Source: Halothiobacillaceae bacterium (GTDB taxonomy: Bacteria > Pseudomonadota > Gammaproteobacteria > Halothiobacillales > Halothiobacillaceae). Taken from it: DNA of 37,362 bases. Location of the stretch: contig JAFGUH010000005.1 in assembly GCA_016938615.1 (NCBI GenBank), positions 1-37,362 on the forward strand, given 5' to 3'. Shown one piece after another: positions 4,033 through 37,362 of the stretch; within the stretch, counting starts at the first letter, position 1; every line of letters starts with the position of its first letter. A model generated the notes under the pieces. That model saw only the letters and a list, made by a program, of their open reading frames with translations, had not been told where the DNA came from and made no database searches. The position numbers and the translations under genes were made by a program.

Positions 4033-4080
4033 GGAACCTCTGCACGAATGCCATACCGCTGAAGCGTGGCTTGTGCCGGA
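4033..4080 (+). mobile_element. Solo terminal fragment of an IS-like element (class B end)
   Basis: GGAACCTCTGCACGAAT begins at 4033, directly after TTAG (4029-4032). About 45 nt match the complement of 37060-37106, with common runs such as CGAATGC-AT-CCG-TGAAGCG. Past roughly 4080 the two copies diverge. No partner right end or transposase frame is seen between here and the next gene, so this looks like a decayed or solo end. The terminal 17 nt are shared with the structured elements at 15435 and 37111. The 4-bp YTAR-like flank suggests the IS5 superfamily, but this is inference. Confidence 0.6.
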
Positions 4081-4210: not shown

Positions 4211-6010
4211 ATGCATGTCGCGGGGTGGGCAAGCCGCGAGCCGCGTCGCCGCGGTGACGTGACCGGCCGGCAGCGCGCTGCGCGCTCGCCCGGACGGTGG
4301 TCATGGCGCCTGGTTGCCTGGTCTGTTTTCGTCGCATGCCTGGTCGTTGGTTCCCCGTTCCCTTCCGCGGGTCACGCCGGGGAGCGCCCCCTCGCCCGGG
4401 CGCAGTGGGCGACGACCACGCAGTCGCTCTCCCCGGCCGAGGCACTCGACCTCGACTTCCGGGCGATGTCGGGAGACACGCTCAATCTCGGCCCGTTTCA
4501 GGGCGATATCTGGCTGCGTCTTTGGCTTGACGGCAGCGAGATGGGCGAACGTCGATGGTTGTCGGTGCGCTGGCCCTACGCGCGTGATTTCCGGTTCTAC
4601 CTGGTCGGGTCGCGATCGGCGGACGGCAAGCCCTCGCTGCTCGAATGGCGCGAGGGCGCTCATCCCATCGGGCTGCCCGCGATACCCACCGATCCCGGGC
4701 GGCTGCTGCCGGCCTTCGACGGGAAGCGGCAATTTCTCTTGCGGCTGAGCGCAGACGGTCCCACGGCTATGCAGCTCACGCTGGATTCGGTCCAGACCGA
4801 GCGCAATCGGCTGCTCTCGCGCTACCTCCTTTTCGGCATTTATCTGGGTGCCATGCTGGGCATGGCCACCTACAGCCTCTTCCTGATGTTGGCGCTGCGC
4901 GAGCGCACCTATGCGGGCTACGCCGCGTTCCTCGCTGCCACCGTGCTTTATGTCGGGCTTCGGTATAACGTCCTCGGCCCTCTGCTTCCCGAGTTCTTGC
5001 ACTGGATGTCGCCGGCGCGGCAGGCCCAATTGGCCGTGGCGCTGATGGCGCTGTCCGGGATCGGTTTCGTGCGCCGCTTCCTGCAAAGTCCCCGCGACGA
5101 TCCCCGGGCCGACCGTGTGCTTCAGCTCCTCATGTTGCTGGCGCTGTCGACCGTGCCCGCCTCGGCCGCACTTTCGGGGGAGCTGTCGTCCCTCCTGGTC
5201 ATGGGCATGGTGGTGGCCACGGTGCTTGGCATCTTTTGGGCGGCCTGGCGGAGCATGGGGCGTGGCTTTCGCCCGGCCTTCAACCTGCTGATTAGCTGGT
5301 CGATGTTTGCCGTGGTGGTGCTGCTCTATCTGGCCATGTTGCTGGGCGTGCTGCCGTACTCGGCCGTGCTGACCCTGGGCCTGCCGCTGGGATCGCTCGC
5401 CCTGGCCCTTTTGTTGGCCTTTGCGCTCGGCAGCCGGATCCGTCACAAACAGCGCGAGGAGGCCGCGCTCGAGCGCGACCGCGACCGGTACCGGTTTCTC
5501 AGCGAGCGCGACGGGCTCACGGGGTTGTACAATCGCCGCGCGCTCGACCGGCAGATCGAGCAGGCGGTCGACGTCGCCCTGCGCGATGGTTCGCCGCTGA
5601 GCCTGGTGGTGATCGACAACGATCATTTCAAGGGCTACAACGATCGCTACGGTCACCTGGCCGGGGACGATGCGCTGCGCTGTCTTGCCCGGACGATGGC
5701 GGCCAATGTCCGGCAAGACGACCTGTGCTTTCGCTACGGCGGCGAGGAGTTCGTGATCCTGCTGCCCGGGCAGACAACGGTTCAGGCCATGGCCGTTGCC
5801 GAACGTATCCGCGAGGCCTATCGAACCGGCTCGGCGTCCGATTCGGGGCCCGGCGGCACGATCAGCCTCGGTGTGGCTGAGCTCCGTCCGGGCGACACGG
5901 CCACCAGCCTGTTGGCTCGCGGGGATGCCGCGCTCTACCATGCCAAGGAGCAGGGGCGCGACCGGGTGGAGCAGGCGCCCTGGGCCCTGCCGGAAACGCC
6001 CCCGGGGTGA
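4211..6010 (+). CDS. Membrane diguanylate cyclase with 7TMR-DISM sensor
   Basis: This 599-residue protein should make cyclic di-GMP in response to an extracytoplasmic signal. An N-terminal hydrophobic segment (about 32-50) is followed by a periplasmic 7TMR-DISMED2-type beta domain (about 70-190), seven predicted membrane helices (about 205-415) and a short helix leading into a GGDEF domain (about 430-590). The active-site motif is GGEEF at 510-514. The RQDD at 501-504, five residues upstream, is an intact RxxD inhibitory I-site, so product feedback is expected. ATG 4211 is preceded by GAGGG. GTG 4259 is an alternative that would trim 16 residues. The gene stands alone between an IS remnant and ilvE, and its ligand is unknown. 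Confidence 0.9.
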   Translation: MHVAGWASREPRRRGDVTGRQRAARSPGRWSWRLVAWSVFVACLVVGSPFPSAGHAGERPLARAQWATTTQSLSPAEALDLDFRAMSGDTLNLGPFQGDIWLRLWLDGSEMGERRWLSVRWPYARDFRFYLVGSRSADGKPSLLEWREGAHPIGLPAIPTDPGRLLPAFDGKRQFLLRLSADGPTAMQLTLDSVQTERNRLLSRYLLFGIYLGAMLGMATYSLFLMLALRERTYAGYAAFLAATVLYVGLRYNVLGPLLPEFLHWMSPARQAQLAVALMALSGIGFVRRFLQSPRDDPRADRVLQLLMLLALSTVPASAALSGELSSLLVMGMVVATVLGIFWAAWRSMGRGFRPAFNLLISWSMFAVVVLLYLAMLLGVLPYSAVLTLGLPLGSLALALLLAFALGSRIRHKQREEAALERDRDRYRFLSERDGLTGLYNRRALDRQIEQAVDVALRDGSPLSLVVIDNDHFKGYNDRYGHLAGDDALRCLARTMAANVRQDDLCFRYGGEEFVILLPGQTTVQAMAVAERIREAYRTGSASDSGPGGTISLGVAELRPGDTATSLLARGDAALYHAKEQGRDRVEQAPWALPETPPG

Positions 6011-15361: not shown

Positions 15362-15434
15362 GGGCAAGTATTCTAAGGGATAATGACGACCATGCGCTTG
15401 TATCGCTCATCCCTCTGGACATCGTGTTGCCTGG

Positions 15435-15712
15435 AGAACCTCTGCACGAATAGCCAACGCCTCTGCGGGTCGCCAGGTGTCCAGATGCAAGGCGCAATGC
15501 GCCGCGCAATGACCGGCGCGATTGCCAAGCGCTGCAACGCCGCAGATTGGCGGCTGGCGACCGGCCCGGACGGGGCTCGTGGGTTTGCCCGCACGCCGCA
15601 AAGCCGTCTCTCGACGGGCCCGAGTTATTGCCTTGGGCCCGTCTTTGAGCAGGCGCCAGAAAAACGAACAAACTCGCGACCCAGAGGCGCCATTGATTCG
15701 TGCAGAGGTTCC
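15435..15712 (+). mobile_element. Class A structured MITE-like element, complete copy
   Basis: The 278-bp element has terminal inverted repeats: AGAACCTCTGCACGAAT at the left and the complement of GGAACCTCTGCACGAAT at the right, flanked by CTGG on both sides (15431-15434 and 15713-15716). Subterminal CCTCTGCGGGTCGC near the left is mirrored by GCGACCCAGAGG near the right. The inside holds GGTCGCCAG...CTGGCGACC and a 9-bp hairpin GACGGGCCC (15613-15621) / GGGCCCGTC (15635-15643). It carries no convincing coding frame. Its left half is about 90% alike to the complement of 37362-37240. It lies between lpxL and waaA and supplies nearly all of waaA's upstream DNA. Confidence 0.85.
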
Positions 15713-15726
15713 CTGGTGACCCCCGC

Positions 15727-19805: not shown

Positions 19806-19810
19806 TCCGC

Positions 19811-21876
<2,066 letters not shown>

Positions 21877-23290: not shown

Positions 23291-23390
23291 CGAACCTCTG
23301 CACGACGAGCCAACGCCTCTGCGGCTCGCGAGGCCCAGAGACAAGGTGCGCCGCGCGATCGCCGTCGCCATTGCCAGGCGCTGGACAGGG
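23291..23390 (+). mobile_element. Class A element, decayed left part
   Basis: CGAACCTCTGCACGA starts right after TTGA (23287-23290). The next 95 nt follow the left half of the 15435 element, including AGCCAACGCCTCTGCGG, GCGCCGCGC and ATTGCCA-GCGCTG. No right terminal repeat was found before the next gene. The remaining gap to 23647 has GC-rich low-complexity sequence with a repeated CCGTGCGGCT and no gene, and may be the decayed remainder. Confidence 0.75.
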
Positions 23391-23647
23391 TGGTCACGAT
23401 ACCGAGGCGGCCGGTGCAGCCCGGCCCGAGGGACGAGGGTCTCGGATGCGCCCGGCAACGCCGCCGGTGGACGTCTGGTGTCGGGCAAGCCCCGGTGAGG
23501 GGCGATTTGCCGAGGGCGTGCCCCTGCTGCCCCGGGTTCCCCCGTGCGGCTCCGGTTGCCCGTGCGGCTGCCGGATCACTTGTCGTTCGTGTCATGCTGG
23601 AGGGTCGCGATGGCGCGAGTGGCATAACCAAATCGGAGAGGTAATCG

Positions 23648-26488: not shown

Positions 26489-27133
26489 TTATTCCCCGGT
26501 GGTCGGCGCCAGGATGGCGCCGTCCGCGCCGCCCTGGGCATCTGCGCCACCTTGGGCGCCACCTTGAACAACGCCCTGCGTGTCGTCCTGGATGCTGCCT
26601 TGGGCATCGCCTTGCGTGCCGCCCTGGATGCCGCCCTGAGCGCCGCCCTGCGTGTCGCCCTGGGCCCCGCCTTGGATACTGCCGTCCGCGCCGCCCTGGG
26701 CATCTGCGCCGCCTTGGGCGCCACCTTGAACAACGCCCTGCGTGTCGTCCTGGATGCCGCCTTGGGCATCGCCTTGCGTGCCACCCTGGGCGCCAACTCG
26801 GGCGTCGCCTTGCGTGCCGCCCTGGGCCCCGCCTTGGATACTGCCTTGCGTGCCGCCCCGGGCATCTGCGCCACCTTGGGCGCCACCTTGAAGAACGCCC
26901 TGCGTGTCGCCCTGGACACCGCCTTGCGTGTCGCCCTGGGCGCCGCCTTGAGCATCGCCTTGCGCGCCACCCAGGAGTCCGCCTTGACTGCCCCCCTGGG
27001 CCTCCACTTGAACCCCCACTTGGGCTCCACCACCCAGTTCCGCGCTTTGAGCTTGGGCGCTGCCCATGCCGATTATCGTTACCAATGCTGTGCTACCGAT
27101 GAGTGTCGTGATGGTTTTGGCTTCGAATTTCAT
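26489..27133 (-). CDS. Secreted Gly/Gln-rich tetrapeptide-repeat protein
   Basis: This is a 214-residue protein of unknown function. It has a signal peptide MKFEAKTITTLIGSTALVT with likely cleavage after SAQAQ. The mature part is almost only a period-4 repeat of the form xQG(G/D), for example GGAQGDTQGG, with Ala, Thr, Ile, Val and Asp as variable residues. There are no Cys, aromatic residues or catalytic motifs in the repeat. It is probably disordered or fibrous and extracytoplasmic. ATG 27133 is chosen because it starts a clean signal peptide after AAAGGTG. The frame extends to 27202. Other frames are also open across this region because the DNA repeats in multiples of 12 bp, but only this one has a signal peptide and ribosome site. 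Confidence 0.7.
   Translation of the reverse strand: MKFEAKTITTLIGSTALVTIIGMGSAQAQSAELGGGAQVGVQVEAQGGSQGGLLGGAQGDAQGGAQGDTQGGVQGDTQGVLQGGAQGGADARGGTQGSIQGGAQGGTQGDARVGAQGGTQGDAQGGIQDDTQGVVQGGAQGGADAQGGADGSIQGGAQGDTQGGAQGGIQGGTQGDAQGSIQDDTQGVVQGGAQGGADAQGGADGAILAPTTGE
26531..27000. repeat. 162-bp higher-order repeat within the Gly/Gln protein gene
   Basis: The start GCC(C)TGGGCATCTGCGCC recurs at 26531, 26693 and 26855, exactly 162 bp apart (54 codons). Copies 1 and 2 are nearly identical for about 90 bp, and copy 3 is more diverged and incomplete. Below this is a 12-bp periodicity matching the tetrapeptide. Confidence 0.9.
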
Positions 27134-27166
27134 AAAACACCTTTTCACGTCGTTCGTGGATGTCCC

Positions 27167-27184
27167 GGCATCTTTGTCGATGCC
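27167..27184 (-). other. Leader inverted repeat of the Gly/Gln protein gene
   Basis: GGCATC-TTTGTC-GATGCC is a perfect 6+6 inverted repeat 34 nt upstream of the Gly/Gln gene start. It could be an mRNA hairpin or a repressor site. Confidence 0.35.
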
Positions 27185-27307
27185 GCGAGCGGGAAATGCC
27201 ATTCGCTGGGTTCTGTGTCATCCGGCCGCGGCGAGAGTTCCTGATATCGTTCGCCTTTTCGTGACGGCCTTGGGGAAAGCGGGTTCCTCGGCATGACGGC
27301 GCGCAGT

Positions 27308-37059: not shown

Positions 37060-37106
37060 CCGGCTCCAGGCGCGCTTCACCGGAATAGCATTCGCGCAGA
37101 GGTTCC
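37060..37106 (-). mobile_element. Solo class B element end, reverse orientation
   Basis: Read on the complement from 37106, the sequence GGAACCTCTGCGCGAATGC continues for about 45 nt in step with 4033-4080. Its interior past about 37060 has no match in the window, and no opposite end is seen. It faces the class A copy head to head across TTAA. Confidence 0.6.
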
Positions 37107-37127
37107 TTAAGGAACCTCTGCGCGAAT
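37090..37127. repeat. Perfect 38-bp palindrome at the element junction
   Basis: The terminal repeats of the class B and class A elements face each other: 17 nt, TTAA (37107-37110), then the exact complement of the 17 nt. It can extrude a cruciform and would be hard to replicate or assemble. Confidence 0.95.
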
Positions 37128-37362
37128 ATCCAATGCCTCTGGCTTACCGGCTTGTTCGTCATCAAGGCGCCGATTCGAAGGCGGGCTCATTGCCCGGCGA
37201 GGATCGGGAACACCGATGACGGGCAAGCCGGCAAGCCCCGCAGGGCGGGCCGCCAGGCGCCCACCTGCGGCGTTACAGCGCTTGGCAATGGCGACGGCCA
37301 TTGCGCGGCGCACTGCGCCTTGCATCTGGACGCCTGGCGACCCGCAGAGGCGTTGGATATTC
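37111..37362 (-). mobile_element. Class A structured element, cut by window end
   Basis: The element starts with GGAACCTCTGCGCGAAT at 37111. The far end, read on the complement, is GAATATCCAACGCCTCTGCGGGTCGCCAGG and closely follows the left half of the 15435 element, so the copy is inverted relative to it. The last 13 or so nt of the terminal repeat fall beyond the window. A nested central hairpin is visible: TGCCCGG (37191-37197) with CGGGCA (37220-37225), and ATCGG (37203-37207) with CCGAT (37213-37217). No gene is seen in this stretch. Confidence 0.85.

Follow-up and report, generated by a model that had tools for sequence, protein, structure and literature searches.

A MITE is commonly regarded as the offshoot of a single insertion sequence (IS), to which its ends bind it. 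Sequences of the REP/REPIN type form inverted hairpin pairs dispersed in many copies, in which they resemble the element analyzed here. REPs are described as 20-40 bp long with a GTAG or CGTC tag (PMC3733652, available part of the text); the element differs in having ~100-nt arms, terminal repeats and 4-bp duplications. MITEPsy1 of Pseudomonas syringae transposes in vivo, is probably moved by ISPsy2 of the IS5 family, and has well-conserved copies in one P. syringae genomospecies only, with similar sequences in other genera, according to the available part of its description (PMC3189936). It shares with the element a left end of the type GGAAGGTCTG, a 4-nt CTAG or YTAA duplication and the lack of coding sequence; it is 100 nt long, and a two-armed body is not mentioned in that part of the description (PMC3189936). 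The target of IS5 is given as YTAR (PMC10359306, partial text). IS of the IS5 group (NCBIfam NF033581) have the same GGAANNTCTG end type and YTAR target, and differ in encoding a transposase and in their size of ~1.2 kb; the exact ends of the element were not found on any of them in the genus. QMITE2 of Coxiella is also short and non-coding, with terminal inverted repeats and a very stable predicted fold, and differs in its 7-9 bp duplications and its sizes; a conserved core with differing ends across genera is not described in the accessible part of that review (PMC10969869).

The window analyzed here, a stretch of 37,362 nucleotides from a Halothiobacillaceae bacterium, is the whole of one contig (C198) of a 2.395-Mb genome assembled in 267 contigs (94.7% complete). 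Tandem CTCTGCC units occupy positions 1-60 at the left end, so both ends of the contig lie in repeats. A first-pass annotation had described a family of three structured elements in the window, and this family is real: the end motif, with up to three mismatches, was found 6 times vs 0.18 expected, a number reached in 0 of 100 shuffles, and the copies could be aligned (Table 1). The complete element at 15435-15712 has the ends AGAACCTCTGCACGAAT (left) and GGAACCTCTGCACGAAT (right, reverse strand); they are of the type GGAACCTCTGCRCGAAT, from which the left end departs by one base. Its arm 1 scored 86.0 bits (E 1.5e-17) against R1, a covariance model of one arm with 102 positions built from 21 host-family arms without their ends, this copy being one of the 21 training sequences.

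Table 1. Features of the element family in the window
Feature	Position	Strand	Remark
Whole element of 278 bp, composed of outer stem, arm 1, mini-hairpin, arm 3 and outer stem	15435-15712	+	predicted fold, z -6.8
Target duplication, left 4-bp copy, CTGG	15431-15434	.	
Target duplication, right 4-bp copy, CTGG	15713-15716	.	
Left terminal inverted repeat, 5' side of outer stem	15435-15464	+	
Right terminal inverted repeat, 3' side of outer stem	15683-15712	-	
Arm 1, ~100-nt hairpin with conserved GATGCAAGGCG and GCAACGCCGCAG	15465-15566	+	model R1
Inverted copy, ended by contig boundary	37111-37362	-	arm 1 at 37244-37345, minus strand, 102.3 bits (R1)
Decayed copy, left end and part of body, right end lost	23291-23517	+	157/234 identical
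Solitary element end that faces the 37111 copy over TTAA	37090-37106	-	
TTAA, a YTAR sequence separating two facing ends	37107-37110	.	
Isolated end immediately 3' of a stop codon, remainder decayed	4033-4049	+	best 108/178 identical

The other two copies had to be redescribed. The one at 37111 exists, inverted relative to the copy at 15435 and cut by the contig boundary; given this inversion, the reported conservation of about 90% in the left half and less in the right fits, since the best common stretch found by BLAST (positions 14-157) is 88% identical and the overall identity is 206/273. The copy at 23291 is present but decayed: its identity spans element positions 2-204, a right end with up to three mismatches was not found, and R1 gives no match in it. 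Two isolated ends had been overlooked, at 4033-4049 and at 37090-37106; the latter faces the 37111 copy, and the facing ends (37090-37127) form a perfect palindrome across TTAA. Facing ends 4 bp apart recur elsewhere (C34, C100, C23 and L223) and may arise when the duplicated YTAR beside one copy serves as the target of another. On another contig of the host genome (L228, G000:C102, about 1392-1505) six element ends of the GGAACCCCTGCACGACCAG type lie in tandem with a 19-bp spacing, possibly a by-product of end-to-end insertion.

The large genomic family that had been expected was found: the host genome contains 46 BLAST matches to the element and 285 end-motif matches with up to three mismatches (139 forward and 146 reverse, vs 4 and 5 in the backwards control). 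Elements with paired ends in the fetched loci measured 93 to 350 bp, most of them 265 to 280, and many had CTAG, TTAG, TTAA or CTTG on both sides. Matches occurred in 14 of 40 sampled genomes, namely the host, 9 of the 10 others of its genus, three of another genus in the family and, weakly, one outside it. Matches of the first scan in Thermoguttaceae (L090, L091, L096 and L102) and Marivivens (L089) and single matches in three genomes (G114, G123 and G217) lacked the fold of the element and were set aside as chance or another kind. The form GGAANNTCTGC was found in N. europaea only (1 of 81 genomes) in a family-wide scan around Nitrosomonas, and all 25 of its matches in viral contigs look like chance, with an end identity of 10-18 of 30 vs 23-30 of 30 in the 15 matches L140-L154. 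A working set of 116 elements was assembled with both ends and the arm motif, without duplicates or overlaps; the host and its relatives of the Guyparkeria/Halothiobacillus type supplied 109 of them, and other groups the remaining 7. The non-redundant alignment held 87 copies, 81 of them from relatives of the host (identity 41-95%, mean 73%).

Transposition of the element was assessed by its flanks and by empty sites. The flanking 4 bp were identical in 35 of the 116 elements (30%), vs 9.9% when flanks were mixed between elements. YTAR was found on the left of 61 and on the right of 53, CTAG being the commonest form; non-YTAR flanks also occur, such as CTTG, and CTGG in the window. The site upstream of waaA occupied by the element at 15435-15712 was empty in every one of the eight further congeneric genomes in which this region is present (L196-L203; the region was missing from L204, and G004 had no match). 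The site after a transporter gene occupied by the copy at 23291 was equally empty in 8/8 (L206-L213; G004 and G009 without match). Both comparisons thus gave the empty orthologous sites that the first-pass annotation had proposed as a check. Insertions common to close species also exist. No coding frame had been seen in the first pass, and none is open in all 87 non-redundant copies (each frame is open in 10 to 51 copies); a three-base pattern in column variability was likewise not found in these copies, and a hidden reading frame was ruled out. Together with the terminal inverted repeats, a defining feature of MITEs, the copies, empty sites, 4-bp duplications and lack of a common frame support the MITE reading of that annotation. 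The element is a non-coding MITE, every defining feature that could be tested having been found.

Other known classes were also considered. An assignment to REP/REPIN with RAYT was rejected, the ~100-nt arms not being 20-40 bp palindromes with the tag. A structured RNA family was rejected as well, with no Rfam match at the curated threshold on the elements scanned; the best scores came from a weak similarity of one arm to M23 RNA (27.7 bits at L335:242-289 and 24.1 at L339:1500-1547, vs a threshold of 41.2), and the tRNA and TwoAYGGAY matches lie in the flanks, outside the elements. The TwoAYGGAY motif (54.7 bits, threshold 43) is on a Guyparkeria contig at L105:259-328, ~7.3 kb from an element. 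Neither an Rfam family nor, among the titles and abstract openings listed, a publication describing the element was found.

The body of the element is predicted to fold into a fixed plan in which an outer stem encloses two inverted arms of ~100 nt with a tiny hairpin between them. Automatic parsing (outer stem, arms of 70-115 and 65-115 nt, middle hairpin up to 30 nt) recovered this plan in 94 of 116 copies vs 1 of 116 when the interior was shuffled and the ends kept. Seven members, three from Guyparkeria and one each from Nitrosomonas europaea, Thiomicrorhabdus chilensis, Salinisphaera and a betaproteobacterial MAG, are predicted to fold alike (z -6.8 to -15.2); Thiomicrorhabdus copies have one additional small hairpin. 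Across the 87 copies Watson-Crick pairing was seen in 0.864 of the stem cells; reassigning right halves among the copies lowers this value to 0.738, and sliding gives 0.24-0.29. Among nearest relatives both sides of a pair had changed 268 times vs about 68 expected. Pairing showed no correlation with mismatches in the target duplication (rho -0.01), so that decay after insertion is not seen.

The spread of the arm beyond the host family was determined with R1, which recognises arms in Nitrosomonas, Thiomicrorhabdus, Salinisphaera and others; none of 11 unrelated viral loci was matched at E up to 1. With a cut-off of E 1e-4, 66 of the 274 genomes sampled from the class Gammaproteobacteria gave a match, and these represent 55 of 221 genera. 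The best E was no higher than 1e-8 in 48 of the 274, host genus counted, and went down to 1e-16 in other genomes, these E-values being rough because the calibration was shortened; at least 14 copies were scored in the richest genome. Among 23 loci from other genomes (L330-L352) a second, inverted arm lies beside the first in 17, and the full two-armed plan was recognised by eye in the predicted folds of 16; in four of the 23 the stretch chosen had missed the element, and three (L341, L343 and L351) were ambiguous or cut. In an alignment of 61 arms, fitted to the structure and with 6 rows that are opposite-strand echoes of the same place, all 27 modelled pairs had changed on both sides, and the covariation score was 0.859 vs 0.202 when shuffled and at most 0.136 when slid. 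The arms also share motifs outside the stems, GCAAGGCG and GCAACGCC. In plasmid and phage records the sole match was a partial one, in the Azotobacter chroococcum plasmid pAcX50f. This folded body, common to elements of many other genera with other ends, was invisible in the first pass.

The outer stem of the elements in other genomes is also well paired, with a different sequence. The ends TGTACTGCGCC (L339), TGTCCTGTCAC (L342) and TACTCTTTCAA (L349) have CTAG or TTAA on both sides. TTAA flanks both sides of GGGCACCTCTATTAAT (L333, G163), and CTAG both sides of GGTCTGTTGACG (L376, plasmid pAcX50f), TGTACTGCGCCAC (G116), TGTCCTGTCACAC (G053) and TACTCTTTCAAGG (G228). The other side is one base off in three cases: TTAG by TGTCCCTTAACAG (G057), TTAG by TGGGCCAAGTGG (G039) and TTAA by GGAACCTCTGATCAATT (G225). 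Of 17 ends placed by hand, 9 had YTAR on the side that was read; a one-base shift of L331 and L332 would raise this to 11, and the other 6 (L330, L335, L337, L340, L344 and L350) had none there. The first 16 nt of 22 ends, five of them of GGAACCTCTGC types, had a mean identity of 0.36, vs 0.54 for the arms of 31 loci. Copies from the same genome usually have the same type of end (G116, G239, G089 and G288; 33 of 41 loci covered), and the type found in G225 and G089 resembles the ends of an IS in the host's family (L072, below). A further type, GAACCTGTT, was found in the viral contigs L378 and L381. Another viral contig (L380) has, near 5108-5164, a one-armed form with ends GGATGCTCTGCACGAAT and GGATGGTCTGCACGAAT and CTAG beside one of them. 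The MITE kind itself was already known; the conserved folded core across many genera with changing ends is new.

The first-pass annotation had looked to a transposase gene with GGAACCTCTGC ends as the partner. Such a gene was not found in the host genome, where a search for DDE_Tnp_1 (PF01609) at 94.7% completeness gave no match; only 1 of the 11 genomes of the genus has one. An autonomous copy was not found in 20 stretches of the host genome scanned around unpaired or distant ends, and in the two with an IS-sized end spacing (L217 and L218) the long frames look by eye like ordinary genes. In the same bacterial family, locus L072 is a 1.2-kb element with GGAAGGTCTGATCAAT ends, a TTAA duplication and a 331-aa IS5-group transposase. 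A related transposase was found at 15 viral loci. Three of them (L156, L157 and L158) have both ends of type GGAAGGTCTGA and YTAR flanks, identical on both sides in L156 and L158; five more have a left end of this type, and L165 has GGAAGGTGCG ends. A search of 369 genomes of the class for GGAANNTCTGC followed by the IS5 motif MLRIH, the C-ended IS5 pattern, gave a match in one (G157), whose IS is present in five copies of 1158 bp with the left end GGAACTTCTGC, a right end reading GGATGCTCTGAAC and a transposase of the NF033581 type. Its duplications are identical in four copies (TTAG, TTAA, CTAA and TTAA); the fifth has TTAG vs CTAG. The G157 IS and the element have only about 11 terminal bases in common, and the IS's own right end differs. 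In the viral contigs none of 12 matches to the pattern had an IS5-like frame of at least 150 aa on the pattern strand, and the PF01609 loci of Nitrosomonas and Salinisphaera, many of them at contig edges, had no paired ends of this type. The GGAANNTCTG(C) end is common to the element, L072, the viral IS and the G157 IS, but the following RCGAAT is not. The resemblance of the ends to those of the IS5 group, the YTAR target and the precedent of MITEPsy1 make an IS5-group transposase the likely mover of the element. One of the G157 copies (L238, 1501-2662) lies inside an apparent CRISPR array, with a repeat-like GTGTTCCCCGCGCACGCGGGGATGAACCG at its right flank.

Several other explanations of these data were weighed. 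The element could be an ordinary MITE, formed by internal deletion of one IS5 element and with nothing special about its body; its ends and target resemble those of IS5-group elements, as in the pair MITEPsy1/ISPsy2 (PMC3189936, available part). Its body has no open frame in common among copies and is recognised in 55 of 221 genera and between other ends, so that we regard this origin as improbable. The folds of other genera could instead have arisen independently from the inverted repeats of different IS, as the largely different ends of the various genomes might suggest. This is very unlikely, since the arms share motifs outside their stems and R1, built on host-family arms, detects the arms of other genomes with low E-values and none of the unrelated viral loci. 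A third alternative is that the selected unit is a structured non-coding RNA (a regulator, a terminator or an RNase III substrate) which transposition merely spreads. The very stable predicted folds and the strong covariation would agree with it, as would the finding that 49 copies lean to G-T and 23 to A-C on the canonical strand. So would the model-aligned arms, each read on its own strand, with 81 G-T vs 20 A-C and 37 arms leaning to G-T vs 5, in an alignment fitted to R1 and biased towards it. In the alignment of 87 copies, which is not fitted to the model, the bias is inconsistent: 104 pairs predicted on both strands gave 355 G-T vs 270 A-C cells, 44 pairs lean to G-T and 41 to A-C, and arm 1 leans to G-T (169 to 91) where arm 3 leans to A-C (96 to 73). 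This pattern does not look like selection on one transcript. The canonical strand is less stable on average, being the more stable one in only 32 of 87 copies, and the two arms are inverted copies, so that a transcript would read one sense and the other antisense. In the model-aligned arms the G-T excess is on each arm's own strand; the two arms lie on opposite strands, which fits a symmetric DNA better than one RNA. With the two sites empty in relatives and the lack of an Rfam family at threshold also against it, an RNA as the selected unit appears unlikely.

Pairing could also be the outcome of mutation, with template switching turning imperfect palindromes into perfect ones, and not of selection on the fold. 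The ends do change in concert, positions 4-6 being the same on both ends in 92 of 116 elements vs 25% if independent, and in orthologous insertions of 97-100% identity 1 of 22 changed cells was compensatory vs 0 of 53 in other pairs, numbers too small to carry weight. At 91-97% identity compensatory changes were rare in orthologous insertions, 3 of 85 changed cells vs 683 of 4523 in other pairs (10 interdependent pairs of insertions). These figures suggest upkeep of the pairing in the lineage that moves rather than within a resident insertion, yet pairing is unrelated to duplication mismatches. Arm lengths, junction and unpaired motifs are similar across genera, which palindrome repair would not enforce. 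Repair as the cause of the pairing therefore has a modest chance at best. Our preferred mechanism is that the core works as a DNA fold which aids transposition, with selection on this DNA form and not on a transcript.

We thus consider it probable that the element is a MITE moved by an IS5-group transposase, with a conserved fold and a lasting core whose ends are replaced to fit the available YTAR-specific transposases. That it belongs to a superfamily of structured elements which borrow transposases and combine a conserved core with exchangeable ends is well supported; the borrowing itself is suggested by the YTAR target and by one near match, that of the G089 ends (L346) to L072. An IS5-group transposase would act in trans on GGAANNTCTG ends, and insertion at YTAR would duplicate 4 bp. 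The two ends would make the ~30-bp outer stem around the two inverted arms and their tiny central hairpin, and the fold may bring the ends together, for instance when the strand is single or extruded. The core would then be the lasting unit, its ends being replaced to suit whichever YTAR-specific transposase is at hand. More tentatively, and with more doubt than confidence, the superfamily may be an ancient non-autonomous one in which the folded two-armed DNA core acts as a general adaptor that unites any matching ends and so exploits successive YTAR-specific transposases. If true, this would account for its occurrence in roughly one in four of the genomes sampled from the class, among them some in which no partner transposase was found. 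With ends that vary across genera and a body that persists, the body would be the unit that evolves, and the transposase a host that can be exchanged. The 102-position arm model offers a concrete object with which to study why certain non-coding transposons persist longer than their partners, and the family may underlie many unexplained intergenic repeats and draft-genome contig breaks in these bacteria.

Two further features of the window were observed outside the element family. A repetitive 237-aa frame rich in GGAQG (26489-27202, minus strand) appears by eye to be of low complexity and possibly encodes a secreted protein, and a TPP riboswitch (19806-19917, 60.1 bits) lies at the start of a thiC-like frame (19867-21876).
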